From: Candidatus Omnitrophota bacterium
GTDB lineage: Bacteria > CAIJMQ01
Assembly (NCBI GenBank): GCA_018812925.1
Contig: JAHJCU010000003.1
Span: 62,001 to 126,000, forward strand
DNA length: 64,000 nt
Direction: 5' to 3'
Part shown: in pieces, positions 37,017 through 61,010 of the stretch
Layout: each line of letters opens with the position of its first letter
Numbering within the stretch: position 1 is the stretch's first letter
Position numbers and translations under genes: made by a program
The notes under the pieces: generated by a model
What the model was told of the DNA's origin: nothing
Database searches by the model: none
Seen by the model: the letters and a program-made list of their open reading frames with translations, nothing else

Positions 37017-37142
37017 CTCGTAAATAGTAAATCGTAATTTTTTTAGTTGTTTTTATTATTTAGTTGATTACTGTTTACCATTTACGCTTTACGGGTTACA
37101 GATTTTTAATTACCATTTACCGATTACCAATTACTAATTACG
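37012..37142. repeat. inverted heptamer arrays upstream of larB
   Basis: Left arm: GGTAACT, CGTAAAT, AGTAAAT, CGTAATT (37012-37039). Spacer: T-rich, 26 bases. Right arm: eleven consecutive 7-base units from 37066 to 37142, ten of which fit NNTTACN (for example GATTACT, GTTTACC, ATTTACG, AATTACC). The arms are reverse-complementary in style and could form a hairpin. This is the longest and cleanest of the period-7 arrays. Confidence 0.75.
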
Positions 37143-39316: not shown

Positions 39317-39448
39317 CCCTGTACCACGTAGGATGCAGGGCAGGGGATAAAAAATATGAATAAAAATACTAAATTGAATAAACCCCGCACCACCGAACCA
39401 CGTAGGGTTCGGGGCACAGTACGCCCCGTACTACGTAGAGTACAGGGC
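39317..39448. repeat. cluster of three palindromes (family Q) at the larC start
   Basis: Three short inverted repeats with an ACGTAG centre: CCCTGTACCACGTAGGATG... (39317-39340), CCGAACC-ACGTA-GGGTTCGG (39393-39414) and GCCCCGTACT-ACGTAG-AGTACAGGGC (39423-39448). A fourth, in the opposite orientation, is at 52148-52170. All are GC-rich relative to the surrounding DNA. Two lie inside the frame that leads into larC. Confidence 0.75.
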
Positions 39449-40651
39449 ACGTTGGATACAGTGCAGGTGGCATATTTTGATTGTTTCTCTGGAATTAGCG
39501 GGGATATGATACTTGGGGCTTTGATTGATTTGGGTGTAAGCCCTAAATATTTGGAAAAAGAATTGAACAAGATGACTCTTCCTGCTTTCAAACTTGTTGT
39601 TAAGAATGTAAAAAAACAGGGTATCGGCGGGGTAGGGTTGGAAGTTGTTACTAAGGATAAGAAGGAAAGAACCTTAAAAGATATTTTAACGATAATTGAT
39701 AAGAGCAGTTTAGATAAAGATATTAAGGGAACTGCTAAGAAAATATTTGCACGATTAAATGATGCTGAAAGCCGAGTCCACCGCGAACATAAAGAGCGTA
39801 TGCATTTTCACGAGCTCGGAATGCTGGATACTATTGTTGATGTAGTCGGCGTTTTGGTTGGAATAAAAAAATTAGGCATTGAACAAATCTATAGCTCGCC
39901 TCTACATTTGGGAACGGGTTTTGTAAAATGTGTTCACGGAATTTTGCCTGTACCATCACCTGCTACTGCGGAACTGTTAAAAGGGATTCCTGTTTACAAT
40001 AAAAATATAGAAGCGGAATTGGTTACTCCAACAGGGGCGGTGTTAATTACTTCATTGGCGCAAAAGTTTGGCGATATGCCAAAAATGGAAGTAGAAAAAA
40101 TAGGTTATGGCGCGGGACATAAAGACCTGCCCGCTTCGCAGCAGGCGGGCCTGCCTATACCCAATCTTTTAAGGGTTATGGTAGGTGATATGGCAAAAGA
40201 TTATGAGCAGGATACTGTTTCTCTTATCCAGACCAATATTGATGATATGAATCCGCAAATCTGCGGTTATCTTATGGATAAGTTATTGGAACAGAGCGCG
40301 CTTGATGTATGGTTTACACCGATTCAGATGAAGAAGAATAGGCCTGCCGTTTGTTTAAGCGTATTGGCGGAAAAGAACGATGTGGATAGTTTGTGTGAGG
40401 TTATTTTTAGCCAGTCCACTTCTATCGGCGTGAGAATTTCCGAGGTAAATAGAAAGAAGTTGGCAAGGGAAACAAAAACGATAAAAACAAAATACGGTAA
40501 AGTAGTTCTCAAAATAGGAAGAGTAGGTAAGATAGTTAAAAACATCTCTCCAAGTTATGACGATTGCAGTAAACTCGCCGATAAACTCAACATTCCTCTA
40601 AAAGACGTATTGGAAGAAGCAAAGAAGGAAGCTCGTCGATTAATCAAATAA
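39356..40651 (+). CDS. larC: nickel-pincer cofactor nickel insertion protein LarC
   Basis: 431 residues if started at the ATG 39356, but the first about 35 residues (PRTTEPRRVRG, RPVLRRVQG) are translated family Q palindromes. The conserved start VAYFDCFSGISGDMILGALIDLG follows a GTG at 39461, a plausible true start. Later: HFHELGMLDTIVDVVGV (metal-ligand region), TPTGAVLITSLA, and the C-terminal domain NIDDMNPQICGYLMDKL. A family P palindrome inside the frame encodes ASQQAGLP between DLP and IPN. The gene is a single uninterrupted frame with no programmed frameshift evident, and it works with larB and larE. Confidence 0.9.
   Translation: MNKNTKLNKPRTTEPRRVRGTVRPVLRRVQGTLDTVQVAYFDCFSGISGDMILGALIDLGVSPKYLEKELNKMTLPAFKLVVKNVKKQGIGGVGLEVVTKDKKERTLKDILTIIDKSSLDKDIKGTAKKIFARLNDAESRVHREHKERMHFHELGMLDTIVDVVGVLVGIKKLGIEQIYSSPLHLGTGFVKCVHGILPVPSPATAELLKGIPVYNKNIEAELVTPTGAVLITSLAQKFGDMPKMEVEKIGYGAGHKDLPASQQAGLPIPNLLRVMVGDMAKDYEQDTVSLIQTNIDDMNPQICGYLMDKLLEQSALDVWFTPIQMKKNRPAVCLSVLAEKNDVDSLCEVIFSQSTSIGVRISEVNRKKLARETKTIKTKYGKVVLKIGRVGKIVKNISPSYDDCSKLADKLNIPLKDVLEEAKKEARRLIK
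40126..40155. repeat. GC-rich palindrome (family P) inside larC
   Basis: CCTGCCCGC (40126-40134) paired with GCAGGCGGG-type bases (40141-40149), then CCTGCC again. It encodes LPASQQAGLP within LarC, in a region where the family normally continues directly from the GxGxGxKD-like segment to PN(L)LR. Confidence 0.7.
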
Positions 40652-40710: not shown

Positions 40711-40760
40711 TTGACTATTCCTTAATATATTATATAATGGTAATGAAAATCATTTTCATT
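40711..40760 (+). promoter_or_regulatory. promoter and Fur box of the fur-like gene
   Basis: TTGACT (40711-40716) and a perfect TATAAT (40733-40738) with a 16-base spacer. Overlapping the predicted start is AATGAAAATCATTTTCATT (40742-40760), a perfect 9-1-9 palindrome matching the 19-bp Fur box. The expected result is iron-dependent autoregulation of this operon. Confidence 0.8.
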
Positions 40761-40772
40761 AAGGAGAATAAA

Positions 40773-41234
40773 ATGTACGGAAGAAGACAGGAAAGAGCAC
40801 AATTTTTCAGGCATCACGGTTTTAGATGCACGTTGCCTCGAGAGGTGATATTGGATATTTTATATAAAACAAAAAGCCATCTTTCTGCCGAAGATATATA
40901 TTTTAAAGTTCATCCTATATATCCTCAAATAGGGTTAACTACAGTTTATAGGACGCTTGATTTGTTAAACAAAATGGAGCTGATATCAAGGTTTGATTTT
41001 GGTGATGGTAAAGCCCGATATGAACTTATCAAAGAGGGAGACACTTCACATCATCACCATCTTGTTTGCAGAAAATGTAATAGGGTTATTGACTATACGG
41101 ATTTTATGAAAGAAGAAACACGTTTCATAAAGAAGATAGAAGAAGTTCTTTCTAAAAAGCACAACTTTGAAATAGATTCTCATAAGATTCATTTTCAGGG
41201 ATTATGTAGTAAATGTAAAAGTGAAGGGAGGTGA
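40773..41234 (+). CDS. Fur-family metalloregulator
   Basis: 153 residues from the ATG at 40773 with AAGGAG upstream. Winged-helix region GFRCTLPREVILDILYKTKSHLSAEDIYFKV and TTVYRTLDLLNKMELI, then the metal-sensing HHHHLVCRKCNRVIDY, and a second CSKC pair at the C-terminus, giving a structural Cys4 zinc site. The Fur box in its promoter favours an iron regulator (Fur) over PerR or Zur, but Fur-type specificity cannot be proven from sequence. It heads a run of metal-cluster and iron-transport genes to 50.4 kb. Confidence 0.9.
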   Translation: MYGRRQERAQFFRHHGFRCTLPREVILDILYKTKSHLSAEDIYFKVHPIYPQIGLTTVYRTLDLLNKMELISRFDFGDGKARYELIKEGDTSHHHHLVCRKCNRVIDYTDFMKEETRFIKKIEEVLSKKHNFEIDSHKIHFQGLCSKCKSEGR

Positions 41235-41240
41235 ATAATT

Positions 41241-41603
41241 ATGCCAGGTGGAGACAGAAGCGGTCCTAATGGATTGGGACCAATGACAGGTCGTGGGGCA
41301 GGTTATTGCGCGGGTTATGCTGTGCCCGGATATGTTAATCCTGTTGGAGGTAGGATGGGATTAGGTCGAGGCAGAGGTTTTGGTAGAGTTCGCGGTTTTG
41401 GGCGTGGCTTTAGAGGAGCTGCTTACGGTTATGGAGTTCCTTATAATCCGGTTGCTTTGGGTGGTGGCTATCCTGTTCAGGAATTAAGTCCTCAGCAAGA
41501 AGTGGATATGCTTAAAGACCAAGCCAAAGCGATGCAGAATGAAATGGAAGCTATAAACGAACGCATCAGTGAACTAACAACTGCTGCCAAGAAGTCCAAA
41601 TAA
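41241..41603 (+). CDS. DUF5320 domain protein
   Basis: 120 residues beginning MPGGDRSGPNGLGPMTGRGAGYCAGY, the conserved start of DUF5320 proteins. A Gly/Arg-rich middle (LGRGRGFGRVRGFGRGFRGAAYGYG) is followed by a C-terminal coiled coil (QQEVDMLKDQAKAMQNEMEAINERI). Family members typically sit beside NifX/NifB-like proteins and MinD-like ATPases in anaerobes, as here. The molecular role is unknown. Confidence 0.82.
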   Translation: MPGGDRSGPNGLGPMTGRGAGYCAGYAVPGYVNPVGGRMGLGRGRGFGRVRGFGRGFRGAAYGYGVPYNPVALGGGYPVQELSPQQEVDMLKDQAKAMQNEMEAINERISELTTAAKKSK

Positions 41604-41604
41604 C

Positions 41605-41661
41605 TGCACTCAAGAACAAGAGTAGGTAAGCCAGAGCTCGCTTACTTACTCCTTGAGTGTA
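41605..41661. terminator. long hairpin between DUF5320 and NifX-like genes
   Basis: CACTCAAG...GTAGGTAAGC (about 41609-41634) pairs with GCTTACTTACTCCTTGAGTG (about 41640-41659), a long slightly bulged stem with a short loop. It lacks a strong T-run. It could be a partial terminator or mRNA-processing or stability element within the operon. Confidence 0.5.
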
Positions 41662-41677
41662 TGTTTAATAAAGGAGG

Positions 41678-42070
41678 TTGTATATGAAAGTGGCGATATC
41701 TACAGACGGGGATTTTGTGTCTGCTCATTTTGGCAGATGCCCCACTTTTACTATTGTGGATTTAAAGGATGGGAAGATTATTACAAAAGAAAGTGTAGAT
41801 AATCCAGGACATGAGCCCGGATTTATTCCACAATTTTTACATCAAAAAGGTGTTCAATGTATTGTAGCCGGTGGTATGGGTATGCGCGCATCTGGATTAT
41901 TTGGTGAATTGGGCATAAAACCGATTATGGGTGTAAGCGGAAAAATTGATGAGGTAATAAACAAACTTTTGGATGGAACTTTGAAAGAAGGTGAAAGTTC
42001 ATGCAAGCCTGGTGCAGGAAAGGGTTACGGTTTAGATAAAACCGAATGTGACCATCCACAGGAAAAATAA
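41678..42070 (+). CDS. NifX/NifB-like dinitrogenase cofactor family protein
   Basis: 130 residues. MKVAISTDGDFVSAHFGRCPTFTIVDL is the typical start of the Fe-Mo cofactor biosynthesis family (Nitro_FeMo-Co), with VAGGMGMRASGLFGELGIKPIMGVSG in the middle. Such stand-alone proteins carry metal-sulfur clusters (for example the Mo-Cu cluster of orange protein). No nitrogenase genes are present, so nitrogen fixation is not implied. The C-terminal tail has two Cys (SSCKPG, TECDHP). Confidence 0.88.
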   Translation: MYMKVAISTDGDFVSAHFGRCPTFTIVDLKDGKIITKESVDNPGHEPGFIPQFLHQKGVQCIVAGGMGMRASGLFGELGIKPIMGVSGKIDEVINKLLDGTLKEGESSCKPGAGKGYGLDKTECDHPQEK

Positions 42071-42074
42071 ATTT

Positions 42075-42134
42075 CGTAAATCGTAAATAGTAATCGGTAA
42101 TTAGTAATTTAAAAATTAAGGATTACTAATTATG
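42075..42134. repeat. inverted heptamer arrays between the two NifX-like genes
   Basis: CGTAAAT, CGTAAAT, AGTAATC, GGTAATT, AGTAATT (42075-42109), an 11-base spacer, then GATTACT, AATTATG (42121-42134). The unit and inverted design are the same as at 37012-37142, five kilobases away. Confidence 0.7.
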
Positions 42135-42165
42135 AAAAAGAAGTGTTATTAGAAAGGAGTTTTTT

Positions 42166-42534
42166 ATGAAGATTTGTGTAACTTCACAGGGGAATGATTT
42201 GGATTCACAAGTTGATCCCCGATTTGGCAGATGTAAGTATTTTATTATTGTTGATACCGAATCCTTGGAATTTGAAGCGGTTGAAAATCCGAACCTTAAC
42301 ACTACAGGCGGAGCAGGTATTCAATCCGGTCAAATAATGGCAGATAAGGATGTAAAAGCGGTTTTAACGGGTAACGTTGGGCCGAATGCATTCCAGACGC
42401 TACAAGCAGGCAGTATAGATATTGTGACGGGAGTATCTGGGTTGGTGAAAGATGCAGTTGAAAAATATAAAAAGGGTGAATTTAAACCGACGCAAAATCC
42501 GAGTGTAGGTTCGAAGTTTGGTGTGCAAAAGTAA
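42166..42534 (+). CDS. NifX/NifB-like dinitrogenase cofactor family protein
   Basis: 122 residues, second family member: [31 protein letters not shown], then [45 protein letters not shown]. Only one Cys pair is seen (ICV, RCK), unlike the upstream paralogue. A clear AAAGGAG precedes the start. Two divergent copies suggest separate carrier roles or heteromers. Confidence 0.88.
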
Positions 42535-42541
42535 GACAAAT

Positions 42542-42597
42542 AACAGAGGACAGAGAGACAGAAAAATCTGACTTCTGAATTCTGTTTTCTGATTTCT
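42542..42597. repeat. inverted heptamer arrays with a different unit
   Basis: AACAGAG, GACAGAG, AGACAGA (42542-42562), then after a short A-rich spacer GACTTCT, GAATTCT, GTTTTCT, GATTTCT (42570-42597). The right units read as complements of the left style. Sequence differs from the GTAAT arrays but period and inverted design are the same. Confidence 0.65.
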
Positions 42598-42616
42598 AAA
42601 GAAAGGAGATAATAAT

Positions 42617-42865
42617 ATGCCAAGAGGAGATGGAACAGGACCAACAGGACAAGGCCCCAAAACAGGCAGAGGTATGAGCGGTAGTGATAGAGGAATAGGA
42701 CAAGGTGGAGGTGGTAGAGGTATGGGTGGCGGTAATCGTCCCGGCGCAGGTCCGGTGGGAAATTGTGTATGCCCAAGTTGCGGAGCGAAAGCATCGCATC
42801 AGCGAGGCGTAGCTTGTTATGCTATAGATTGTCCAAAATGTGGGAGTAAGATGGTGAGGGAATAA
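42617..42865 (+). CDS. DUF5320-like protein with zinc ribbon
   Basis: 82 residues: MPRGDGTGPTGQGPKTGRGMSG start like DUF5320, Gly/Arg-rich middle, and a C-terminal CVCPSCGAKASHQRGVACYAIDCPKCGSKMVRE with two CxxC pairs (rubredoxin/zinc-ribbon like). The combination looks like a short relative of the 41.2 kb gene with a metal-binding tail. It is preceded by AAAGGAG and ends 3 bases before the methyltransferase. Confidence 0.78.
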   Translation: MPRGDGTGPTGQGPKTGRGMSGSDRGIGQGGGGRGMGGGNRPGAGPVGNCVCPSCGAKASHQRGVACYAIDCPKCGSKMVRE

Positions 42866-42868
42866 TTT

Positions 42869-43471
42869 TTGGAAGCCAGAGTATTGGAAAATTATAAAAG
42901 ATATTTAGAGAGGGTGAATTTTTGCAAGAATTTTGGATATGATATTGAGCAAGAAAGAAATTTTATTTTAAAAGAATCTAAACCTATTAAGGGCAATATT
43001 TTAGAGATAGGTACGGGGAAAGGATATTTTACAATTGAACTTGCCAAAGAGGGATATAGTTTTACGAGTGTAGATATTTCAGAAAAAGAACAGGAATTTG
43101 CAATGCTTAATTTAGCGTATTTGGGTTTAGAAAAACAGGTGAATTTTAAGATAGATAATGCTGAGGATTTAAGTTTCAAAAACGAAAGTTTTGATGTTAT
43201 TTTTGCAATAAATGCTATACATCATTTTACAAGTCCTTTTAAAGCAATGGACGAATTTATAAGAGTTGCTAAATTGAAAGGTAAAATTATTTTAAGTGAT
43301 TTTAACGAGGAAGGTATGAAGATGATAGGTAAAATTCATCTAAGCGAAGGAAGAAAACACGAAGCAGGGGAAGTTAATTTATCTCAAATAGATAATTATT
43401 TAAAAGGAAAAGAACTCAATACTCAAATACATAAAGGCGGGTTTGAAGATATTGTTATTGCCTTTCGTTGA
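42869..43471 (+). CDS. class I SAM-dependent methyltransferase
   Basis: 200 residues from TTG. SAM-binding motif ILEIGTGKGYFTIELAKEG, acidic residue in FTSVDIS, and NAEDLSFKNESFDVIFAINAIHHF, a UbiE/COQ5-like pattern. The substrate is unknown. It continues the run of closely spaced genes; a role in the metal-cluster system is only suggested by context. Confidence 0.82.
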   Translation: MEARVLENYKRYLERVNFCKNFGYDIEQERNFILKESKPIKGNILEIGTGKGYFTIELAKEGYSFTSVDISEKEQEFAMLNLAYLGLEKQVNFKIDNAEDLSFKNESFDVIFAINAIHHFTSPFKAMDEFIRVAKLKGKIILSDFNEEGMKMIGKIHLSEGRKHEAGEVNLSQIDNYLKGKELNTQIHKGGFEDIVIAFR

Positions 43472-43485
43472 ATAATATATAAAAA

Positions 43486-43920
43486 ATGAGTAAAAATTTT
43501 ATTTTTAAGACAAAGATTAAATGGACCGAGGGTAAAAAAGGAAAGCTGTATAGTTTAAAGAAACCATCAATTGAAGTTTCTACACCTCCCGAGTTTAAAG
43601 GCCCTGATGGCTATTGGTCTCCTGAAGATTTATTTCTTGCATCTATTAACTCTTGTATTATGACTACTTTTATCCATTTTGCTCAAAAGGAGTCTTTTAC
43701 CTTTCTATCTTATGAGAGTGAAGTTGAAGGAGAAGTAAGTTTTGAAGAAGGTAAATTAATATTTTCCTCTGTAACTGTTAGACCTGTTATAGAAGTTAAA
43801 AGCGAATCTGATAGGGGAAAAGCAGAACAATTAATAGAGAAAAGCGAAAGATATTGTTTAATATCGGCTTCTGTTAAATCAAAGGTTACTATATTGCCGA
43901 AGATTGAAGGAAATTTTTAA
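43486..43920 (+). CDS. OsmC-family protein
   Basis: 144 residues: PSIEVSTPPEFKGPDGYWSPEDLFLASINSCIMTTF with the first conserved Cys, and SERYCLISASVKSKV with the second, matching the OsmC/Ohr peroxiredoxin-like layout. Such proteins reduce organic hydroperoxides by a Cys pair. It is adjacent to MBL and DUF89 proteins and could protect cluster assembly from oxidants (inference). Confidence 0.82.
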   Translation: MSKNFIFKTKIKWTEGKKGKLYSLKKPSIEVSTPPEFKGPDGYWSPEDLFLASINSCIMTTFIHFAQKESFTFLSYESEVEGEVSFEEGKLIFSSVTVRPVIEVKSESDRGKAEQLIEKSERYCLISASVKSKVTILPKIEGNF

Positions 43921-44640
43921 ATGGTTCGTAAATTAAAGATATTAGCTGATAATCATCAAGTAGATAAAAATTCGAGAATGTGCTGGGGATTTTCGTGTTT
44001 GATAGGTGAAAATGTGCTCTTTGATACTGGTGAAAGCAATGAAGTTCTTGCTTTCAATATGGATAAAATGGGAGTGCAAGCGGACAAAATAAAAAAACTT
44101 GTTATATCCCACGACCATTTTGACCATACAGGCGGTTTGGAAGCTATTCTTAAGAAAAATCCCAGTATAGAAGTATATCTTCTTTTAGATTTTGGTAGTG
44201 AACTAAAAAAAAGAATATTATCTTTGGGCGCAAGGGTGATTGATAACGATAAATTTATAGAAATTGAAGAGGGAATATATACAACCGGCAAGATAGAGGG
44301 AGAATATGGAGGCGAGTCGATTTCAGAACAAGCTATTGTAGTTAGAGGCAAAAGCGGATTGGTTATAATTACAGGATGTGCCCATCCGTTGATTACTGAT
44401 ATTGTTGAAACCGTAAAGAAAAGATTTCCAAAAGATAAAATTTTTATGGTTTTAGGCGGATTCCATCTTCTTGAAAAGGATATTAGGGAAGTAGAAATTA
44501 TCGCTCAAAAAATGAAAGACTTGGAAGTTGGAAAAGTTGGTCCTACTCATTGTACAGGTGAAGAAGCTATTCAGATTTTTCGCAAAAAATTTGGGAATAA
44601 TTTTGTTCGCATCGGAGTTGGAGCAATAATAAAAATATAA
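43921..44640 (+). CDS. MBL-fold metallohydrolase
   Basis: 239 residues. Metal-binding ISHDHFDHTGGLEAIL (HxHxDH), then ITGCAHPLI and GPTHCTGEEAI giving further His ligands. It resembles the 7,8-dihydropterin-6-methyl-4-(beta-D-ribofuranosyl)-aminobenzene synthase-like MBL branch common in anaerobes; the exact reaction is not assignable. It starts on the base after the OsmC stop codon. Confidence 0.83.
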   Translation: MVRKLKILADNHQVDKNSRMCWGFSCLIGENVLFDTGESNEVLAFNMDKMGVQADKIKKLVISHDHFDHTGGLEAILKKNPSIEVYLLLDFGSELKKRILSLGARVIDNDKFIEIEEGIYTTGKIEGEYGGESISEQAIVVRGKSGLVIITGCAHPLITDIVETVKKRFPKDKIFMVLGGFHLLEKDIREVEIIAQKMKDLEVGKVGPTHCTGEEAIQIFRKKFGNNFVRIGVGAIIKI

Positions 44641-44643
44641 AAA

Positions 44644-45495
44644 ATGAAAACCTACTTAGATTGTATCCCCTGTTTTTTAAAGCAGACAATTGAATTAGCG
44701 CGAATTACCGGTGTTGATGACAAATTGCAGAAGAAAATTATAGATGAAGTTTGTAAAATAATCCCTGAGTTCTCTTTTGAGGCTTCTCCTCCCCAAATGG
44801 CTGTAAAAATCCATAAGATAGTAAGAAGACTTACTTCTAATAAAGACCCGTATAAGAAAATTAAACAGGATTCGCAAAAGTTGGGGCTTGATATGTATCC
44901 GTATCTAAAAGAACAGGTTGCCAAAGCGGATGATGCCTTGGCTTTGGCGATTAAAATAGCTGCTATAGGAAATGTTATTGATTTTGCTACAAATGATTTC
45001 ATCACGATTAAGAAAGAATTAAAAGATATTACAAATCATAAGTTTGCAGTTTTTGATTATGAAAAATTTAAAGATTCTTTAAATAATGCAAAAACAATTC
45101 TTTATCTTGGAGATAATGCAGGTGAAACCGTTTTTGATAAAGTATTGCTTGAGAAAATTTCAAAAGATAAAAGAACATATTATGCAGTAAGAGGTTTCCC
45201 TACGATAAATGATGCATTAGAAGAGGACGCAATAGAGGCAGGTATAGCTCATTATGCGGAAATAATATCAAATGGTTCAGATGCTCCTGGAACTTTTTTA
45301 AATTCTTGTTCTAAGGAGTTTTCAGATATTTTTCTTAATGCAGACCTGATAATAAGCAAAGGACAGGGTAACTTTGAGTCTTTGCACGGTGGTAATTATC
45401 CTATCTTTTTTATCTTTATGATTAAATGTCCACCTGTAGCAAAAGAATTGAATTGTAAGGTTGGTAATTTGATATTAAAAAGTGGAAAAGAATAA
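44644..45495 (+). CDS. DUF89/ARMT1-like damage-control phosphatase
   Basis: 283 residues. MKTYLDCIPCFLKQTIELAR is the archetypal start of DUF89 subfamily I proteins (CxxC), and ILYLGDNAGETVFDKVLLEKI carries the metal and phosphate-binding DN/GE motif; LIISKGQGNFESL follows. DUF89 proteins are metal-dependent (Co/Ni/Mn) phosphatases acting on damaged metabolites. Its position in a metal-cluster operon is worth noting. Confidence 0.87.
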   Translation: MKTYLDCIPCFLKQTIELARITGVDDKLQKKIIDEVCKIIPEFSFEASPPQMAVKIHKIVRRLTSNKDPYKKIKQDSQKLGLDMYPYLKEQVAKADDALALAIKIAAIGNVIDFATNDFITIKKELKDITNHKFAVFDYEKFKDSLNNAKTILYLGDNAGETVFDKVLLEKISKDKRTYYAVRGFPTINDALEEDAIEAGIAHYAEIISNGSDAPGTFLNSCSKEFSDIFLNADLIISKGQGNFESLHGGNYPIFFIFMIKCPPVAKELNCKVGNLILKSGKE

Positions 45496-45507
45496 GGAGC
45501 TATCACA

Positions 45508-45801
45508 TTGGATAAATTTGAGATGATTGATAAAGCCAGAAAAATATTAGGGTTAGGTGAAGAAACTAATAGAGAAGAGATTAAAGAAAAATACAGAGAA
45601 CTAATGAAAAAATATCATCCTGATAAAACATCCGATAATCAAGAATATTTAGAGAAAGCTAAAAATATAAATTGGGCTTATAGCGTTATTACTTCTTACT
45701 GCGATGAATATAAATTTTCATTTAGCAGGGAAGATATAGAAAGAATGAATCCAGAGTTAAAACTTAATAGACAATTCGGAGACGATTGGCTATTAAAATA
45801 A
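45508..45801 (+). CDS. stand-alone J-domain protein
   Basis: 97 residues from TTG behind AGGAG. It has a J-domain: ARKILGLGEETNREEIKEKYRELMKKYHPDKTSDNQEYLEKAKNINWAYSVI with the invariant HPD at 37-39. There is no zinc finger or C-terminal substrate domain, so it is a small Hsp70 co-chaperone. It is located between DUF89 and a MinD-like ATPase, in the same run as an IscU/NifU-like scaffold. An HscB-like function in Fe-S transfer is possible by analogy, but the fold outside the J-domain is too short to be HscB. Confidence 0.85.
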   Translation: MDKFEMIDKARKILGLGEETNREEIKEKYRELMKKYHPDKTSDNQEYLEKAKNINWAYSVITSYCDEYKFSFSREDIERMNPELKLNRQFGDDWLLK

Positions 45802-45841
45802 GTTAGCCAGTCAACGGGTTAATCGGTTAACTCGTAAACAA
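45802..45841. repeat. degenerate octamer array
   Basis: Five 8-base units starting with GT: GTTAGCCA, GTCAACGG, GTTAATCG, GTTAACTC, GTAAACAA. The period here is 8 rather than 7, but position (intergenic, before a MinD-like gene) and style match the heptamer arrays. Confidence 0.5.
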
Positions 45842-45853
45842 TAAAACCAAAAT

Positions 45854-46717
45854 ATGATTATTACAGTCGCAAGCGGCAAAGGTGGAACAGGTAAGACATT
45901 GGTCTCAACCAGTCTTGCTTTGTCTTTGAAAACACCCGTGCAGTTTTTGGATTGTGACGTTGAAGAACCCAATGCCCATATTTTTTTAAAAACTGAGATT
46001 AAAGAGAGAGAAAAAGTTTATTTACCTAAACCAATTGTGGAAGATTCTAAATGTATAGGGTGTGGGAAATGCAGTGAAATCTGTCAGTATAATGCGATTG
46101 CGGTGGTTAAGGGTAAAGTTTTAATATTCTATGAATTATGCCATTCTTGCGGAGCTTGTTCTTTGGTTTGTCCTGAAAAAGCTATATTTGAAGAGGATTC
46201 GGAAAAAGGAATCCTAGAGGGTGGTTACAGTGGTAACATAGAATTCTGGAAAGGCACCCTGACTGTTGGAGAAGCTGCACCCACTCCTTTAATTAAGGCC
46301 CTAAAAAAGAAAATAGATAATAAAAAAACCGTGATAATAGATTCATCGCCGGGTACTTCCTGTCCTATGGTAGAAGCAGTTAATAATTCAGATTTTACAA
46401 TTCTTGTTACTGAACCTACACCTTTTGGGCTTAATGATTTGATATTGGCAGTTGAAGTGGTTAAAAAATTAAAGCTTCCTGTTGGCGTGATAATCAATCG
46501 TTTTGACATTGGAGATGATAAAGTTGAGCTATATTGTAAAGAAAATAAAATACCCATATTGATGCGTATCCCTTTTGACAGAGAGATAGCAGTGTTGTAT
46601 TCAAAGGGGATACCGATTACTCAAGAAAAAAAAGAATATATTAAAAAGTTTCAGGATGCATTTGACGTAATAAATATGTTGCAACAAAAATATAATAATA
46701 AAGCTATAAAAAGTTAA
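45854..46717 (+). CDS. MinD/Mrp-like P-loop ATPase with inserted 2[4Fe-4S] ferredoxin domain
   Basis: 287 residues. Deviant Walker A ASGKGGTGKT (6-15), DCDVEEPNAH, ferredoxin-type CIGCGKCSEIC (about 62-72) and CHSCGACSLVCPE (about 93-105) inserted after the first strands, then IDSSPGTSCPM and TEPTPFGLNDLILAVE. This is the architecture of the ATPases found with orange-protein (ORP) clusters in anaerobes, where they are thought to deliver or assemble metal-sulfur centres. A second similar ATPase follows at 47.1 kb, suggesting a heterodimer. Confidence 0.9.
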   Translation: MIITVASGKGGTGKTLVSTSLALSLKTPVQFLDCDVEEPNAHIFLKTEIKEREKVYLPKPIVEDSKCIGCGKCSEICQYNAIAVVKGKVLIFYELCHSCGACSLVCPEKAIFEEDSEKGILEGGYSGNIEFWKGTLTVGEAAPTPLIKALKKKIDNKKTVIIDSSPGTSCPMVEAVNNSDFTILVTEPTPFGLNDLILAVEVVKKLKLPVGVIINRFDIGDDKVELYCKENKIPILMRIPFDREIAVLYSKGIPITQEKKEYIKKFQDAFDVINMLQQKYNNKAIKS

Positions 46718-46718
46718 T

Positions 46719-47129
46719 ATGAATAAAATTAAATCAGGTGAAGATTCTAAAAAATTTCATAAGAATTGTTTTGCGTGCGGAAAAAATTCTCCGATTGGAT
46801 TAAAGTTAAAGTACTTGCTTTGTGGTAATACGCTTACAAGTGAGTTCAAAATTCCCGATAATTATCAGAGTTATGACGATATAGTACACGGGGGAATTAT
46901 TTCTACAATTCTTGATTCCAGCATGGTGAATTTGTTTTATAAAAGGGATGGTTTAAAGCTAAAGACAGCCAAATTGAACATAATTTTTCGGAAAAGTGTT
47001 CCCATAAATAGAAGTTTTGTTGTTACGGCAATTGCCGATGATAACGCAAGACATTTCTATAAAGCTAATGCCCAAATAAAAATAGGCGATACGGTTTTTG
47101 CCGAGGCAGAAGGATATTTCAGGAGATAA
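46719..47129 (+). CDS. PaaI-type hotdog thioesterase-like protein
   Basis: 136 residues. CFACGKNSPIGLKLKY at the N-terminus (two Cys) and YDDIVHGGIISTILDSSMVNLF, the helix bearing the catalytic region of PaaI-type acyl-CoA thioesterases (HGG), then AKLNIIFRKSVPI. It sits between the two MinD-like genes with only a 1- to 3-base spacing. An involvement in cluster assembly is not known; the family acts on acyl or aryl thioesters. Confidence 0.8.
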   Translation: MNKIKSGEDSKKFHKNCFACGKNSPIGLKLKYLLCGNTLTSEFKIPDNYQSYDDIVHGGIISTILDSSMVNLFYKRDGLKLKTAKLNIIFRKSVPINRSFVVTAIADDNARHFYKANAQIKIGDTVFAEAEGYFRR

Positions 47130-47132
47130 CAA

Positions 47133-48041
47133 ATGAAACAAATATTAATAATCAGCGGTAAAGGCGGCACAGGCAAAACGGTAGTAACCGCTTCATTTGC
47201 AGTTCTTGCCAAAAATAAGGTAATGGTTGATGCAGATGTGGATGCTGCTAATCTTTATCTTTTGCTTGACCCCGAAATTAAAAGCACAAATGCATATATA
47301 GGAAGCAAGTCGGCGTTTATTGATGAAGAAAAATGTATAGGGTGCGGAAAATGTGAGCAGATTTGTAGATTTGACGCTATTAGCCCCGTTAGAGATAAGA
47401 CACCTAAGGTATCTGACAGTTGCCTTGAGCAACCTATCTCTAACGGGGTTTATTATATAGATAAATTTGCATGTGAGGGATGTGGTGCCTGTAGGGTTGT
47501 TTGTCCCAAAGATGCGGTAACTTTAAATGAAGAAGAAACAGGTAAATGGTTTGTTTCAGATACTAAATATGGACCATTTGTCCACGCAAAACTTGGTATT
47601 GCTCAGGAAAATTCGGGCAAACTCGTTTCTGTAATAAGAGAAAAGGCAAAAGTTCTCGCGATAGAAAAAAATGCTGATTACATAATCATTGACGGCCCGC
47701 CCGGAATTGGTTGCCCCGTAATTGCTTCCCTAAATGGCATAGATATGGCAATTGTAGTTACGGAGCCATCTCTTTCAGGTATACACGATATGCAAAGAGT
47801 TATAGGTGTTGCGCAGCATTTCGGAGTGGATACGAAGGTTATTATAAATAAATATGATATTAATTTGGAGAATACAAATGCCATCAAGGAAATCTGTAAA
47901 GATAATAAAGTGGAAGTCTTGGGACAGTTGCCTTTCTCTGATAAAGTTCCCCAAGCTATAGTTAAGGGTGTTCCTATTATTGAGTTTTGTAATGACCAAA
48001 TAGCTCAAGATATTATTAATGTATGGGAACAAATAAAATAA
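47133..48041 (+). CDS. MinD/Mrp-like P-loop ATPase with ferredoxin domain and an inserted palindrome
   Basis: 302 residues, paralogue of the upstream ATPase. ISGKGGTGKTV (8-18), DADVDAANL, CIGCGKCEQIC (68-78), CEGCGACRVVC (114-124), then IDGPPGIGCPVIASL and TEPSLSGIHDMQRV. Residues 84-106 (SPVRDKTPKVSDSCLEQPIS plus NGV) are encoded by a 65-base nested palindrome (47384-47448) with family R arms, lying between the two Fe-S motifs; the frame is kept. The insertion adds one extra Cys and probably forms a surface loop. Confidence 0.9.
   Translation: MKQILIISGKGGTGKTVVTASFAVLAKNKVMVDADVDAANLYLLLDPEIKSTNAYIGSKSAFIDEEKCIGCGKCEQICRFDAISPVRDKTPKVSDSCLEQPISNGVYYIDKFACEGCGACRVVCPKDAVTLNEEETGKWFVSDTKYGPFVHAKLGIAQENSGKLVSVIREKAKVLAIEKNADYIIIDGPPGIGCPVIASLNGIDMAIVVTEPSLSGIHDMQRVIGVAQHFGVDTKVIINKYDINLENTNAIKEICKDNKVEVLGQLPFSDKVPQAIVKGVPIIEFCNDQIAQDIINVWEQIK
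47384..47448. repeat. nested palindrome (family R) inside a coding gene
   Basis: Outer arms CCCCGTTAGAGAT (47384-47396) and ATCTCTAACGGGG (47436-47448). The interior has ACACCTAAGGT and GTTGCCTTGAGCAAC dyads. The same outer arms bound the element at 5178-5356. It is 65 bases with only sense codons in the frame used. Confidence 0.8.
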
Positions 48042-48046
48042 AAATT

Positions 48047-48430
48047 ATGCATGAAGAAAATCTATCCGGTTATTCCGAAAATATAATAAAAATATCCCAA
48101 AATTTAAAACATTTTGGCAGAATGAATGACCCAACAAGCGTTGCATCTATTAAGGGACCTTGCGGTGATGAGATGGAATTTTATCTTATTATTAACAATG
48201 GGATTATAGAAGACGTAAAGTTTTATACGGATGGATGTATTGCCACAAAAGCTTGCGGTTCTATGGCGGCTCGGTTTGCATTCGGAAAAACGATTGAAGA
48301 AGTTTTAAGTATCTCACCGCAGAAAATAATAGAATCTTTGAAAGGTTTACCCAAAGACCATTGTCACTGTTCTATTTTAGCTGTCAGCACTCTGTATAGA
48401 GCTATAGCAGATTATTTACTGAAAAAATAG
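48047..48430 (+). CDS. IscU/NifU-like iron-sulfur scaffold protein
   Basis: 127 residues from the ATG at 48047 (an ATG at 48023 would overlap the ATPase). It follows the NifU-N/IscU pattern: KGPCGDEMEFYL with the first Cys, FYTDGCIATKACGSMAA with the next, and PKDHCHCSILAVSTLYRAIADYL with the C-terminal Cys. This supplies the three cluster ligands of a scaffold, with variant spacing. It probably holds a nascent Fe-S cluster for the neighbouring ATPases. Confidence 0.83.
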   Translation: MHEENLSGYSENIIKISQNLKHFGRMNDPTSVASIKGPCGDEMEFYLIINNGIIEDVKFYTDGCIATKACGSMAARFAFGKTIEEVLSISPQKIIESLKGLPKDHCHCSILAVSTLYRAIADYLLKK

Positions 48431-48450
48431 GAAATTTATAGAGGTATGCA

Positions 48451-48684
48451 ATGGAAATAAATTTAACACAATTAAAACCCGGTGAATCGGCAATAGTAAA
48501 AACAATACAGGGCGGATTCGGATTTATCAATAAAATACATTGTATTGGGATAAGACCGGGCAAGAAAATTAAAAAAGTAAGCTCTCATTTTTGGGGAGGT
48601 CCGCAAACCGTAGAAGTGGACAATATGCAGGTAGCTATAGGTTTCGGTATGGCTAAAAAAATTTTTGTTGAGGTGAAGGAATGA
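48451..48684 (+). CDS. feoA: FeoA ferrous iron transport protein
   Basis: 77 residues, SH3-like FeoA: INLTQLKPGESAIVKTIQGGFGFINKIHCIGIRPGKKIKKVS. It is a small cytosolic partner of FeoB. The stop overlaps the feoB ATG by 4 bases (ATGA). The presence at the end of the Fur-headed run is expected for iron supply. Confidence 0.9.
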   Translation: MEINLTQLKPGESAIVKTIQGGFGFINKIHCIGIRPGKKIKKVSSHFWGGPQTVEVDNMQVAIGFGMAKKIFVEVKE

Positions 48685-50396
48685 AAAATAAGATTTTATT
48701 GATGGGTAATCCCAACGTGGGGAAAAGCGCCATATTTTCACGTCTTACAGGCGCAAAAGTAATAATCTCCAATTATCCCGGCACTACAATAGAGTTTACC
48801 CAGGGACAGATGAAAATAGGCGACGAAAGGCCAATGGTAATAGATGTCCCCGGTACTTATTCGTTAGAACCTACCTGTAATGCAGAAGAAGTGGCAGTTC
48901 GAATGTTAAATAACTGCAGTGGTGTAATTATAAATATTATTGATGCTACAAATTTGGAGAGAAATCTGTATTTGACACTGCAGTTATTGGAAAAGGGCAT
49001 TCCTATGATTGTAGCTTTGAATATGTGGGATGATACAAAACATAAGGGAATTCATATTGATGTAAAAAAGCTGGAAAAAAAATTAGGTGTTCCGGTAATT
49101 CCCACCTGCGGTTTAACGGGTGAAGGCATAAATGAATTAGTTAAGCGGTTACCCAAAGCGAAGGTTGTAAAAAAACAACCACTTTCCAAAAACAAAATAT
49201 GGGAAAAAATAGGTCGTATCGTTGCAGAATCACAAAAATTATCTCATCATCATCACACTCTATTGGAAAGGTTGGAAGATTTAAGCATTAAACCTTTGAC
49301 CGGGTTGCCTCTTGCTGCAGGTGTTATATTTTGTGCCTTCTGGCTGGTTCGCTTTATAGGGGAAAACCTTATTAACTATATATTTAATCCTCTTTTTTAT
49401 AAATTATGGTTACCTTTGATTGTGAAATTAAGTAATTTTTTAGGTGCTGGGACTTTCTTGCATAATATTTTAATCGGCAGTCTAATTAACGGAAAAATAG
49501 ATTTTGGGCAGTCTTTTGGCCTTTTAACAACGGGATTTTTTGTGCCGATTGCAATGGTTTTACCTTACATATTAAGTTTTTATTTGATATTAGGATTTTT
49601 GGAGGATTTTGGTTATTTACCCCGCCTTGCTGTTTTAGTCGATAACTTTATGCATCATTTAGGTCTTCACGGATACGCAATAGTTCCTTTTATTTTAGGG
49701 TTGGGTTGTAATGTCCCCGGAGCATTAGCTATTCGGATTTTGGAAGGAAGGCGTGAAAAATTTATAGCAGCTACTTTAATGGCAATTGCTATTCCCTGTA
49801 TGGCGCAGATTGCGATGATTATAGGCTTGTTAGGTCCAAGAGGAGGAAAGTATGTAGCATTTGTATTTCTCATTCTTTTTGCTCTCTTAATCTTAAAGGG
49901 ATTAGTTTTAAATAAAGTGTTAAAAGGCACTAGTCCTGAACTTCTTCTTGAAATACCACCTTATAGAATACCCCAGGCGCTTGCAGTAATTAAAAAACTC
50001 TGGATGCGTTTAGCCGCATTTTTAAAAGAAGCATTGCCTTTAGTACTATTGGGCGTGTTTTTAGTTAATATGCTTCATTACTTAGGAATAATGGATTTTA
50101 TTGCGAAATTATTTGCGCCTGTTTTTACAACTTTACTCGGACTTCCCAAAGAAGCAATTTCCTCTTTAATAGTCGGTTTCTTAAGAAAAGACGTAGCCAT
50201 CGGTATGCTTGGACCTCTTAATTTAACCACTAAACAATTGATTATCGGTTCAACGATTTTAACTATCTATTTCCCCTGCATTGCCACTTTTGTTGTCCTA
50301 ATCCGCGAACTGGGCATAAAAGATATGTTCAAAATTGCTATCATTATGATTACAGTCGCGTTATTGGTAGGCACAACACTTAATTTATTTTTATAA
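48681..50396 (+). CDS. feoB: FeoB ferrous iron transporter
   Basis: 571 residues, shorter than the 773 of E. coli. N-terminal G domain: GNPNVGKSAIF (G1), DVPGTYSLE (G3), NMWD (G4). The helical part and about 8-10 membrane helices follow, with FILGLGCNVPGALAIRILEGRREKF and IVGFLRKDVAIGMLGPL, the duplicated gate motifs (normally GxGCxxP and similar). It imports Fe(II). The overlap with feoA gives coupled translation. Confidence 0.94.
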   Translation: MKNKILLMGNPNVGKSAIFSRLTGAKVIISNYPGTTIEFTQGQMKIGDERPMVIDVPGTYSLEPTCNAEEVAVRMLNNCSGVIINIIDATNLERNLYLTLQLLEKGIPMIVALNMWDDTKHKGIHIDVKKLEKKLGVPVIPTCGLTGEGINELVKRLPKAKVVKKQPLSKNKIWEKIGRIVAESQKLSHHHHTLLERLEDLSIKPLTGLPLAAGVIFCAFWLVRFIGENLINYIFNPLFYKLWLPLIVKLSNFLGAGTFLHNILIGSLINGKIDFGQSFGLLTTGFFVPIAMVLPYILSFYLILGFLEDFGYLPRLAVLVDNFMHHLGLHGYAIVPFILGLGCNVPGALAIRILEGRREKFIAATLMAIAIPCMAQIAMIIGLLGPRGGKYVAFVFLILFALLILKGLVLNKVLKGTSPELLLEIPPYRIPQALAVIKKLWMRLAAFLKEALPLVLLGVFLVNMLHYLGIMDFIAKLFAPVFTTLLGLPKEAISSLIVGFLRKDVAIGMLGPLNLTTKQLIIGSTILTIYFPCIATFVVLIRELGIKDMFKIAIIMITVALLVGTTLNLFL

Positions 50397-50441
50397 AAGT
50401 GGTAAAGTAAACACAGTTCTACCAAATAAACTATTAATAAA

Positions 50442-52124
50442 ATGAACAAAATATATTTTCCCCAATACAAAAAAGAAAAGGAAGGACTGGCTTTTAAAAA
50501 AGGTCTTTCTATTTTAGATTATCTTAAAGAATCCGGCATAGAAATCAATGCCGAGTGCGGCGGTAATGGTAAATGCGGCAAGTGTAGAGTAAGAATAGAA
50601 AAAGGGAAAGAGAACTTAAACGAATTAACCAAGTCAGAACAATCCTTTTCATTAGCTTTCAACGAAAGATTAGCTTGTCAGGCAGTAGTGGCAAAGAATA
50701 AAGAAGATATAGTTGTCTTTATAAAAGAATCCGGCAAGTATGAAATCCTGACAGAAAGTCTTGCCCCGAACCGAACTTGTTCTCCCGCCTGCCAATCTTT
50801 TGCGGGCAGGGGTTTGGGGTTAAAATTAAATCCCTCCACTATACTAAAAGATAATAGGGTAGTATGCGATGGTGAAACGCTTGATGATTATAAAGGCAAA
50901 ATTTACGGGCTTGCAGTAGATGTTGGAACAACAACTTTAGTATTTGAGATAGTCAATCTCCAGACCCCGATAAAATCAACGGGGCAGGCAGGTGAAATCG
51001 TCAAAACCATAGCAAAAACAAATCCGCAAATTGCCTATGGCGGAGATGTCATATCAAGAATTGAATACGCAATAGTAGGGGAGAGGAAACTCGTATATCG
51101 TACAGTTCAAGAAATAGAAATAAAAATAAAAGAATTACAAAAATGTGTAATTGACAGAATAAATGAATCTTTAAAAGAATTAGATATCATGCCATATATT
51201 TACGAGGCGGTAATAGTCGGCAATTCTACAATGAGAAATATCTTCTTTGGACTTGATATATTTTCTCTGGGCTTAAGACCTTATGAACCTGTCCATAAAG
51301 AACCGATTGTAAGAACTGCAGAAGAACTGGGGCTTAATATATTCCCAAAGGCAAAAGTATACGGCGCCTCTTTAATTGGCGGACACGCAGGAGCAGATGC
51401 TTTGGCGGATATTATTGCTTCGGGAATTTATAAGAACGCCAAACCCAGTATGCTCATTGATATTGGCACAAACGGCGAAGTAATACTCGGAAATTCAAAA
51501 CGATTAATCAGCGCGACTCTTGCCGCAGGTGGCGCATATGAAGGAGCAAACGTAAGCTCGGGAACAGGCGCTATTGAAGGGGCAATAAAGAATATAAAAA
51601 TTGAAAATGGCAAAGCCATCTATGAAACGATAGGGGATAAAGAACCAATTGGAATATGCGGTTCAGGACTTATTGATTTATTGGCCGAACTTTTAAGATG
51701 CGGAATTATGGACAAGAGCGCAAAAATAAAAGAGGATTTTAAAGTAACCGATAAGATTAAACTAACCCAATCGGATATCTATCAACTCGTTAATGCGAAA
51801 GCAAGTTTAAAAACAGACCAAATTATTCTCTTAAAACATTACGGCATAGATGTTAAAGATTTGGATAAGATTTATCTTTCAGGCGGATTTGGCAATTATA
51901 TAAATGTTAAAAACGCCATAAAGATTGGTCTATTACCCGATGCGGAAGACAAAATAGTTAAGATAGGCAATGGCGCTTTAGCAGGCGCGAGAGAAATGCT
52001 TTTTTCCAAGGAAGCCAGGAAAACTTCAGAGGAAATAGCCAAGAAGATTGAGCATACTAAACCGAACGAACTGGAAAAAGATTTTAATAATTTAGTAGCG
52101 GATAATATGTACTTCGAGGATTGA
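50442..52124 (+). CDS. RACo/ASKHA-type reductive activator with 2Fe-2S domain (DUF4445)
   Basis: 560 residues. N-terminal plant-type 2Fe-2S domain (ECGGNGKCGKCRVRI with LACQ, about residues 35-85) and a C-terminal ASKHA fold: AVDVGTTTLVFEIV, DIGTNGEVILG, GSGLIDLLAEL, YLSGGFGNYI. This layout is that of activators of corrinoid Fe-S proteins and methyltransferases (RACo-like), which re-reduce Co(II). A family P palindrome (50784-50812) lies in the linker and encodes SPACQSFAGRG in frame. No corrinoid protein is adjacent in the window. Confidence 0.87.
   Translation: MNKIYFPQYKKEKEGLAFKKGLSILDYLKESGIEINAECGGNGKCGKCRVRIEKGKENLNELTKSEQSFSLAFNERLACQAVVAKNKEDIVVFIKESGKYEILTESLAPNRTCSPACQSFAGRGLGLKLNPSTILKDNRVVCDGETLDDYKGKIYGLAVDVGTTTLVFEIVNLQTPIKSTGQAGEIVKTIAKTNPQIAYGGDVISRIEYAIVGERKLVYRTVQEIEIKIKELQKCVIDRINESLKELDIMPYIYEAVIVGNSTMRNIFFGLDIFSLGLRPYEPVHKEPIVRTAEELGLNIFPKAKVYGASLIGGHAGADALADIIASGIYKNAKPSMLIDIGTNGEVILGNSKRLISATLAAGGAYEGANVSSGTGAIEGAIKNIKIENGKAIYETIGDKEPIGICGSGLIDLLAELLRCGIMDKSAKIKEDFKVTDKIKLTQSDIYQLVNAKASLKTDQIILLKHYGIDVKDLDKIYLSGGFGNYINVKNAIKIGLLPDAEDKIVKIGNGALAGAREMLFSKEARKTSEEIAKKIEHTKPNELEKDFNNLVADNMYFED
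50784..50812. repeat. GC-rich palindrome (family P) inside the RACo-like gene
   Basis: CCCGCCTGCC (50784-50793) with TGCGGGCAGG (50801-50810), loop AATCTTT. Flanking CCCCGAACC (about 50764) and GGGG (about 50816) may extend it. It encodes part of the linker between the 2Fe-2S and ASKHA domains without interrupting the frame. Confidence 0.65.
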
Positions 52125-56634: not shown

Positions 56635-57699
56635 ATGATAAAGTTTATTTCTCATAACAATTTTATAAGACTTCTTGCACAACTCAATAAGGATTATCGT
56701 GTTTATGTGCCGGTTAAAAGAGAAGATAAACGTTTCTATGGAAGATTTGAGAATACTCCAACAGAAGATATTGTAATCGGAGAAGTAAGAGCTTTTGAGC
56801 CTCTCAAAGCATTTTTCTTTAAAGGAAGAGAAAAAGTTGCAGATGGCTTTAAAGCCGATATGCCCAGTTCCGGCGACAAACCGTTTGCTATCGTAGGTGT
56901 TAAGGCCTGTGATTTAAAAGGGTTTAAAGTGCAAGATTACGTTTTTTCTGCCAAAAGCGGCACTACTCCTGATGGAACAAATAATGACGATACTGACCCG
57001 TTTTATCTTCAAATGCGGGATAAAAATCTTATTATTTCATCGGATTGCACTTGTGTTATAGATACTTGTTTCTGTCTAGCTTTAGGTGTAAAGCCGTATC
57101 CTCAGGATGATTTTGATATTAATCTGTCTCAAATTAATGGCGGTTTTATTGTGGAGAGTTCTTCAGAAAAAGGAGAAAAAGTTATTCAGCAGAACTTATC
57201 TCTTATGGAAGAATCGACAAAAGGAAAATTATCCGAAAGAGATAAACAAAGAGACAAGGTAGTTAAACAAATAGAGAAGAATATTCAAGAAAACGATATT
57301 CCTTCACAGAAAGTTTTTGAAGGGATTATTGAAAAAAATTACGATTCCGGTATTTGGGAAGAAGAAGCGAAGACCTGTGTTGAATGCGGTGCTTGTAATA
57401 CTATATGTCCTACTTGCCATTGTTTTTTATTATATGACCAGAAGGATGCCAAGAAAATGGCGAGGTTTCGTATATGGGATTCCTGCATGGTAAAAGATTT
57501 TGCCCGTGTTGCCGGTGGTGCAAATCCAAGACATAAACTATGGATGAGACTTAGAAATAGATTTGAGAAGAAATTTGATTTTTTCCCGAAAGTGGCAAAT
57601 CTCTATGCATGTACAGGATGCGGGCGTTGTATATCTGCCTGTCCGGCTAAGATAGATATAAGAAAAGTTCTTAAGAAACTAGTAGATAATAAAAAATGA
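56635..57699 (+). CDS. hydB: hydrogenase-associated Fe-S subunit (HydB/anaerobic sulfite-reductase A-like)
   Basis: 354 residues. The N-terminal part (KDYRVYVPVKREDKRFYGRF) and C-terminal CVECGACNTICPTCHC and CTGCGRCISACPAKIDI, two [4Fe-4S] clusters plus extra Cys, match beta subunits of sulfhydrogenase/NAD(P)-linked hydrogenases. It transfers electrons between the FAD subunit (next gene) and the hydrogenase module. The N-terminal half also has CTCVIDTCFCLALG. Confidence 0.85.
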   Translation: MIKFISHNNFIRLLAQLNKDYRVYVPVKREDKRFYGRFENTPTEDIVIGEVRAFEPLKAFFFKGREKVADGFKADMPSSGDKPFAIVGVKACDLKGFKVQDYVFSAKSGTTPDGTNNDDTDPFYLQMRDKNLIISSDCTCVIDTCFCLALGVKPYPQDDFDINLSQINGGFIVESSSEKGEKVIQQNLSLMEESTKGKLSERDKQRDKVVKQIEKNIQENDIPSQKVFEGIIEKNYDSGIWEEEAKTCVECGACNTICPTCHCFLLYDQKDAKKMARFRIWDSCMVKDFARVAGGANPRHKLWMRLRNRFEKKFDFFPKVANLYACTGCGRCISACPAKIDIRKVLKKLVDNKK

Positions 57700-58511: not shown

Positions 58512-58513
58512 TT

Positions 58514-60054: not shown

Positions 60055-60056
60055 AG

Positions 60057-60482: not shown

Positions 60483-60484
60483 AT

Positions 60485-60505
60485 TAGTAAATAGTATATG
60501 GTAAA
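60485..60505. repeat. three-unit heptamer array in the hydrogenase operon
   Basis: TAGTAAA, TAGTATA, TGGTAAA fill the only sizeable gap (49 bases) of the operon. Units resemble the GTAAAT arrays at 37.0 and 42.1 kb. Confidence 0.5.
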
Positions 60506-60531
60506 AAAACGAAATACAAAAGACTAAAAAG

Positions 60532-61008: not shown

Positions 61009-61010
61009 AA

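Follow-up and report, generated by a model that had tools for sequence, protein, structure and literature searches.

Among the closest described relatives of the locus reported here are the orange protein (ORP) complex of sulfate reducers and the IssA proteins of Pyrococcus furiosus and its relatives. In the ORP complex, the paired ATPases Orp3 and Orp4 each carry two 4Fe–4S ferredoxin motifs, D. gigas ORP holds an S2MoS2CuS2MoS2 cluster, the Di-Nase domain of MrpORP binds a [3Fe–4S] cluster and MrpORP passes clusters to Orp3, Orp4 and Orp8 (PMC6345978). IssA and the uncharacterised IssX clade join a NifX domain to a glycine-rich tail of high pI, and cells make IssA under an abundant supply of iron and sulfur (PMC5524996). 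Genes related to both systems are found at positions 40711–52124 of a 64 000-nucleotide stretch (the window; contig JAHJCU010000003.1, positions 62 001–126 000) from a Candidatus Omnitrophota bacterium. On balance, we read them as a Fur-repressed iron-starvation operon in which the uptake of ferrous iron is linked with ORP-type iron–sulfur (Fe–S) assembly or trafficking. The iron-starvation part of this reading is supported by a Fur box at the point where fur transcription probably starts, by the presence of FeoAB in the run and by the recurrence of the box in several phyla. Fe–S cluster assembly and rationing are poorly known in strict anaerobes, which depend heavily on Fe–S enzymes; the core of this gene set is present in numerous anaerobes, bacterial and archaeal, that are unrelated to one another, and has been studied only in its orange-protein branch.

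The source genome is a draft of 1.47 Mb in 14 contigs (92% complete) and belongs, with its nearest relatives, to a small class; L032 is a genome of the same genus. For comparison, 80 named loci from many phyla were collected using the first of the two island ATPases (ATP1) as the sole query, and genes were counted in the same-strand run around ATP1. The other genes were therefore not selected for.

Gene content, promoter and Fur box

Gene identities were based on Pfam and NCBIfam profile searches. The operon is best drawn from the promoter ahead of fur to the end of the RACo-like gene, with the following elements in order.

40711–40738, + strand: sigma-70-like promoter TTGACT-16-TATAAT ahead of fur (11 of 12 consensus positions; same promoter in L032)
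40743–40759, no strand assigned: Fur box ATGAAAATCATTTTCAT, directly 3' of the −10 element (exact match to the delta-proteobacterial form)
40773–41234, + strand: fur, iron-responsive regulator, 153 residues, ATG at 40773 (PF01475)
41241–41603, + strand: DUF5320 protein with a Gly/Arg/aromatic-rich cationic region and a C-terminal coiled coil (PF17253, 100.5 bits)
41604–41661, + strand: strong RNA hairpin between the DUF5320 and NifXa genes (z −6.1)
41684–42070, + strand: NifXa, related to the Di-Nase domain of MrpORP but free-standing; HFGRC and CDH motifs present (PF02579; NF041136, 98.6 bits)
42166–42534, + strand: NifXb, ORP-like NifX carrier (PF02579; 2wfb and 1eo1)
42617–42865, + strand: DUF5320-like Gly/Arg protein with a C-terminal zinc ribbon (from its sequence)
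42869–43471, + strand: S-adenosylmethionine (SAM) methyltransferase (PF13847, PF08241; family in 10 of 80 clusters)
43486–43920, + strand: OsmC family protein (PF02566; in the cassettes of L032, L033 and L051)
43921–44640, + strand: MBL-fold hydrolase (PF00753; 11 of 80 clusters)
44644–45495, + strand: DUF89/ARMT1-like phosphatase (PF01937, 225 bits; 8 of 80 clusters)
45508–45801, + strand: J-domain protein, 97 residues, HPD present (PF00226)
45854–46717, + strand: ATP1, P-loop ATPase with two inserted 4Fe–4S ferredoxin motifs and Cys170 after switch II (PF01656, Fer4)
46719–47129, + strand: probable hotdog thioesterase (weak TIGR00369 match, below cut-off)
47133–48041, + strand: ATP2, second ferredoxin-insert ATPase, with Cys194 after switch II (PF01656, Fer4)
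48023–48430, + strand: NifU/IscU-type scaffold of a cluster-associated subfamily (PF01592)
48451–48684, + strand: FeoA (PF04023)
48681–50396, + strand: FeoB ferrous iron transporter (PF02421, PF07670, PF07664; TIGR00437 above cut-off)
50442–52124, + strand: RACo-like ASKHA ATPase with a 2Fe–2S domain (PF14574, PF17651, PF00111)

The inventory given in the initial annotation (two NifX proteins, methyltransferase, OsmC, MBL, DUF89, J-domain protein, two ferredoxin-insert ATPases, NifU, FeoA and FeoB) was confirmed by Pfam, which also identified Fur, and the thioesterase that it also named is present as a hotdog match below the cut-off. The first of its two DUF5320 proteins was upheld (PF17253), whereas the second has no DUF5320 Pfam match: it has in common with DUF5320 an MPxGDGxGP start and a Gly/Arg region, and ends in a zinc ribbon. 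The best NCBIfam match of the fur product is Fur (128.8 bits) versus PerR (99.3 bits), both below cut-off. The 16 junctions from fur to the RACo-like gene measure −19 to 95 bp, with a 19 bp overlap of ATP2 and NifU; 13 of them do not exceed 52 bp and three, close to the NifX genes, reach 80–95 bp, which corrects the description of the gaps as mostly under 30 bases. The island had been ended at 50396, which is too early since the run continues into the RACo-like gene; this is probably the last gene of the operon, and occupies the same position in L032 and directly follows ATP2 in L034. LarC, for the nickel-pincer cofactor or nickel insertion, lies directly upstream of fur (39356–40651), as it does in L032 (3–1079, reverse-strand coordinates), and ATP clusters of L036 and L053 also have it nearby. 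It is located upstream of the promoter and is probably outside the operon.

The classical Fur consensus (TGATAATNATTATCA) was tried first, and the delta-proteobacterial form, tabulated for fur and feo genes (PMC545781), was used afterwards; published regulon studies of C. beijerinckii and of delta-proteobacteria contributed Fur box forms only. The island box has 0 mismatches to the delta-proteobacterial form and is the sole match with two or fewer mismatches in the window, where 0.29 are expected; it has two mismatches to the classical consensus, and sites of that quality are no more numerous than chance predicts, nor are promoter-like sites as a class. By count alone the box is therefore modest, and its place and recurrence carry the weight. 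It overlaps the probable transcription start of fur and directly follows TATAAT, so that the start site would lie under any repressor bound there. The Fur box that had been placed upstream of the island is thus exact, with the amendment that fur itself is the first gene, which would make fur autoregulated. Sites matching at least 13 of 16 positions were found upstream of the head fur gene in L032, L044, L055, L062, L065 and L066, and in no case did any of 200 shuffles do better; the palindromic sites at that place in L051 and L130 reach 12 (shuffle fractions of 0.01 and 0.075), and in L053, L059, L068 and L048 Fur sites are weak or none. L032 has a further palindrome resembling a Fur box, located between its fur and DUF5320 genes. 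From what is generally known of Fur, the operon would be repressed by it and is probably switched on at iron shortage. The hairpin recurs at the same place in L032 (12646–12737, − strand; z −3.5) and, having no clear T-run, may be a processing or stability element and not a terminator.

Recurrence of the gene set and natural fusions

Absence of co-conservation in relatives had been named as grounds for refuting the island; instead, the near-whole set is conserved in L032 and the core across phyla. Among the 80 loci, ATP2 was found in 73, NifXb in 64, NifXa in 57 and DUF5320-like genes in 28 and 23, followed by NifU (17), MBL (11), methyltransferase (10), DUF89 (8), Fur (8), FeoB (4) and J-domain (3) genes. 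For NifU, Fur, DUF89 and FeoB these counts are well above the chance expectation of 0.2–0.4 each, obtained from a rough model that takes 1.2–2 copies in a genome of 3 Mb and counts neighbours within 7 kb on the same strand; it ignores shared ancestry and gives only indicative probabilities. The counts support the idea of the initial annotation that scaffold and iron uptake belong with the ORP parts. In a separate sample, ATP2 was present in 98 of 290 genomes, and at least 11 of these 98 have a NifU match within about 7 kb of ATP2 on the same strand.

The gene order is much the same in L032, which has Mrp and TrmO-like genes where the window has others and is without DUF89. More distant examples are a Clostridia metagenome-assembled genome (L053: FeoA-FeoB-Fur-DUF5320-NifXa-NifXb-ATP1-ATP2-DUF89), a WOR-3 locus (L055: Fur-DUF5320-NifXa-NifXb-zinc-ribbon-ATP1-ATP2) and 'bacterium H5_UNCL2' (L119: NifX-DUF89-ATP1-radical SAM-FeoA-FeoB-ATP2/NifU-NifXa). 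A short contig from the named genomes, L106 (titled Candidatus Ratteibacteria), encodes a partial ATP1 that is 61% identical to that of the window.

Several of these genes are fused in other loci. Fusions of NifX (of the NifXb type) to DUF5320 were found in 11 loci and NifX–zinc-ribbon-type fusions in five, which argues that DUF5320 may act as a detachable NifX tail. Fusions of ATP1 to ATP2 (603–619 residues) in three loci (L037, L038 and L039) argue that the two ATPases would form a pair. ATP2 is fused to the front of NifU in one locus (L119:14039–15675), which suggests that NifU may work with ATP2; a frameshift in the record or the gene is likely here because the rest of NifU continues in the next overlapping frame together with NifXa, and the whole is possibly a larger fusion broken by a frameshift.

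These joint occurrences bear on whether the run is simply a Fur/Feo operon beside unrelated genes that share no pathway. The methyltransferase, OsmC, MBL and thioesterase genes do vary between clusters, and the long hairpin and the 80–95 bp gaps could split the transcripts. With NifX, DUF5320, the ATPases, NifU, DUF89 and Fur occurring side by side across many phyla, and with the natural fusions, such a chance neighbourhood is very improbable.

Other recurrent neighbours of the ATPase pair, named by eye, are radical SAM proteins (13 loci), DUF134-like DNA-binding proteins (11), FmdB-like zinc ribbons (10), sigma-54 activators (10) and DUF364-like putative metal chelatases (7), with examples in L034, L050, L089, L090 and L093. 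In the same-genus genome G001, a fused ATP1–ATP2 gene shares a contig with DUF89 and a J-domain gene.

The ferredoxin-insert ATPases and the scaffold

AlphaFold2 models of ATP1 and ATP2 (predicted local distance difference test scores of 94.9 and 92.2, respectively) were compared with known folds by VIA-align. The neighbours were ApbC, MinD, HypB-type proteins, BchL and NifH, with Z-scores of about 20–24; ApbC was the best or tied best (Z of 24.1 and 23.5), and since the neighbours are mostly tied the fold names the superfamily only. The Walker A motif GKGGTGK is invariant in the 45 and 46 family sequences and fits the deviant Mrp/NBP35 form GKGGhGK. Each ATPase keeps two sets of four ferredoxin cysteines, invariant or nearly so across archaea and bacteria (one is nearly invariant in ATP2).

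Beyond the ferredoxin inserts, the only invariant cysteines are Cys170 of ATP1 (46 of 46 sequences) and Cys194 of ATP2 (45 of 45). Both follow the conserved switch II aspartate at a distance of seven residues, the position of Cys132 in NifH, where it has a cluster-binding role; Mrp/ApbC has an aspartate there. The NifH spacing was checked on one Methanosarcina NifH. When profiles of the ATPase families were aligned to NifH by hhalign, only short ends matched up, and the correspondence to Cys132 therefore rests on the ungapped switch II spacing and the similarity of fold. In a heterodimer, the two switch II cysteines are predicted to lie at the interface. The pair shares the P-loop fold of Mrp/NBP35/ApbC but has a single switch II cysteine instead of the aspartate, and no bridging CXXC of the Mrp type is invariant outside the inserts in ATP1 (46 sequences) or ATP2 (45). 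It resembles NifH and BchL in fold (Z of about 20–23) and in the cysteine at the Cys132 position, but differs from them in its ferredoxin insert and in that no nitrogenase-like partner was found in the genome. A literature search under the names of the clusters of orthologous groups (COGs) found nothing for 'inserted ferredoxin domain' ATPases, and the only published biochemistry found for the family is that of Orp3 and Orp4.

A MinD/ParA-like role, in which the ATPases would position the NifX complex or the site of division within the cell, a function already suggested for the ORP complex of D. vulgaris, draws on the presence of MinD among the closest folds (Z of 21–23.5), on the MinD-like C-terminal amphipathic helix reported for Orp3 and Orp4 and on the link of the ORP complex to cell division (PMC6345978). 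Positioning would not need the eight ferredoxin cysteines and the switch II cysteine that each ATPase keeps over archaea and bacteria, and it is at odds with NifU, Feo and Fur as partners; we regard it as unlikely.

The island NifU keeps the three active-site cysteines and the aspartate, and is one residue shorter before the first cysteine than canonical NifU. The same one-residue deletion, with a TDGC motif and the three cysteines and aspartate, was seen in most cluster NifUs of bacteria and archaea; L076, with a NifU of the usual type, is an exception. A second NifU of the genome has the usual form and adjoins NifS on another contig, and SufBC is likewise on another contig. No cysteine desulfurase is among the island genes, and with NifS–NifU and SufBC elsewhere the island is not self-contained for sulfur, contrary to the self-contained pathway first suggested. 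As in the ISC/MIS and SUF/SMS systems, there is a scaffold of the NifU/IscU type and, like HscB in ISC, a J-domain protein; unlike them, the island has its scaffold from a separate subfamily, and the ferredoxin-insert ATPases would be the driver.

The scaffold, J-domain protein and iron uptake had been described as additions to the ORP parts. Scaffold and Feo genes are not unique to this genome; the J-domain gene is largely an addition at the level of the class, its full-length family being found in five genomes of the class, always in the cassette. The J-domain protein was considered as a core part and rejected: outside the class the same family was found only beside ATP2 in L083 (Desulfobacterales), and two planctomycete loci have another J type. 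OsmC genes, too, are for the most part additions at the level of the class.

NifX carriers and the proposed iron pathway

The kinship to ORP claimed for the island was borne out by both NifX proteins and by the fit of the ATPase pair to Orp3/Orp4 (PMC6345978). NifXa matches the MrpORP model NF041136 over model positions 264–365 of 365 only, its C-terminal domain, and also matches the TM1816-type structures 1t3v and 1o13; it carries three features that have been reported for the Di-Nase domain of MrpORP, namely the HFGRC and CDH motifs and the stretch PGHEPGFIP (PMC6345978). NifXb is closest to D. gigas ORP (2WFB) and MTH1175 (1eo1), both at 3e-20, and is thus an ORP (Orp8)-like protein. Unlike in the ORP complex, NifXa is not fused to Mrp and the island holds no Mrp gene, although the relatives L032 and L033 do; the island has a sigma-70-like promoter with a Fur box and not a sigma-54 promoter, no NtrC-type gene is among its genes, and it adds the NifU scaffold, FeoAB, DUF5320 tails, DUF89, OsmC and the J-domain protein. 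The island NifX and DUF5320 genes are the only ones detected in the genome.

Since NifXb is closest to a Mo–Cu sulfide protein (D. gigas ORP; PMC6345978), a pathway for an ORP-like heterometal cluster (Mo–Cu or other) was weighed. MTH1175 is an equally good match, and the link to Fur and Feo points to iron. ModA was not found in the 92% complete genome (WtpA/TupA-type transporters were not searched), and no homologue of the nitrogenase-component families was found in it. The Mo–Cu reading was lowered after these searches, which make Fe–S more likely than Mo–Cu, and we now consider a heterometal pathway unlikely; nothing tested points to the unusual metal–sulfur centre that had been envisaged.

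The main rival is Fe–S storage of the IssA type, in which NifX and the cationic DUF5320 tail would form thioferrate-like particles that the ATPases and NifU mobilise. Residues 1–80 of the DUF5320 protein (26 Gly, 10 aromatic, 9 Lys/Arg; pI 10.6) resemble the IssA/IssX tail by description and composition, and the NifXb–DUF5320 fusions of related clusters have the IssA/IssX architecture as described (PMC5524996); the literature search found nothing on DUF5320 function. In the island the tail is on a separate protein, and a Fur-repressed feoAB operon, with its predicted induction by iron starvation, would be regulated in the opposite direction to IssA (PMC5524996). This weakens the storage model, which we hold to be possible at a rather low probability.

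In the favoured reading, ORP-type Fe–S assembly or trafficking under iron starvation, FeoAB would import Fe2+, and the NifX proteins, with their Gly/Arg-rich cationic tails supplied as separate DUF5320-type proteins, would hold polynuclear Fe–S. The NifU-like scaffold, whose gene overlaps ATP2 and is apparently fused to it elsewhere, would receive or donate clusters. An ATP1–ATP2 heterodimer may use ATP and electrons from the inserted ferredoxin domains for reductive transfer through an interface site to which each subunit would contribute its invariant cysteine, at the position of Cys132 in NifH, and the J-domain protein could recruit Hsp70 for cluster release from the scaffold. Several points weigh against this scheme. 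The models of the ATPases are about equally close to MinD, NifH, BchL and ApbC, so that the fold gives no ground for preferring positioning, electron transfer or cluster transfer; the second interface cysteine of the NifH type (Cys97) has no counterpart among the invariant ATPase residues; the D. vulgaris ORP genes are under sigma-54 control and linked to cell division; and OsmC, MBL, methyltransferase, thioesterase and DUF89 are unexplained by it. More tentatively, the clusters may represent a further broad system for Fe–S assembly (or storage and mobilisation) in anaerobic bacteria and archaea beside ISC, NIF, SUF, MIS and SMS, induced by iron starvation and built from a heterodimeric NifH-like ferredoxin-ATPase, its own NifU subfamily and NifX/DUF5320 carriers. 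Handles on the family are the predicted Fur control, the dedicated NifU subfamily, the putatively detachable DUF5320 tail and the invariant cysteine of each ATPase at the position of NifH Cys132.

Downstream of the island, positions 56635–63922 of the window hold an operon with complex-I-like and group-4-type [NiFe] hydrogenase subunits, a ferredoxin and diaphorase-like subunits. A short interspersed repeat, AGTAATCGGTAATTAGTAA, and near copies of it occur at 42089–42107 and 37110–37135 (three matches, against 0.05 expected).

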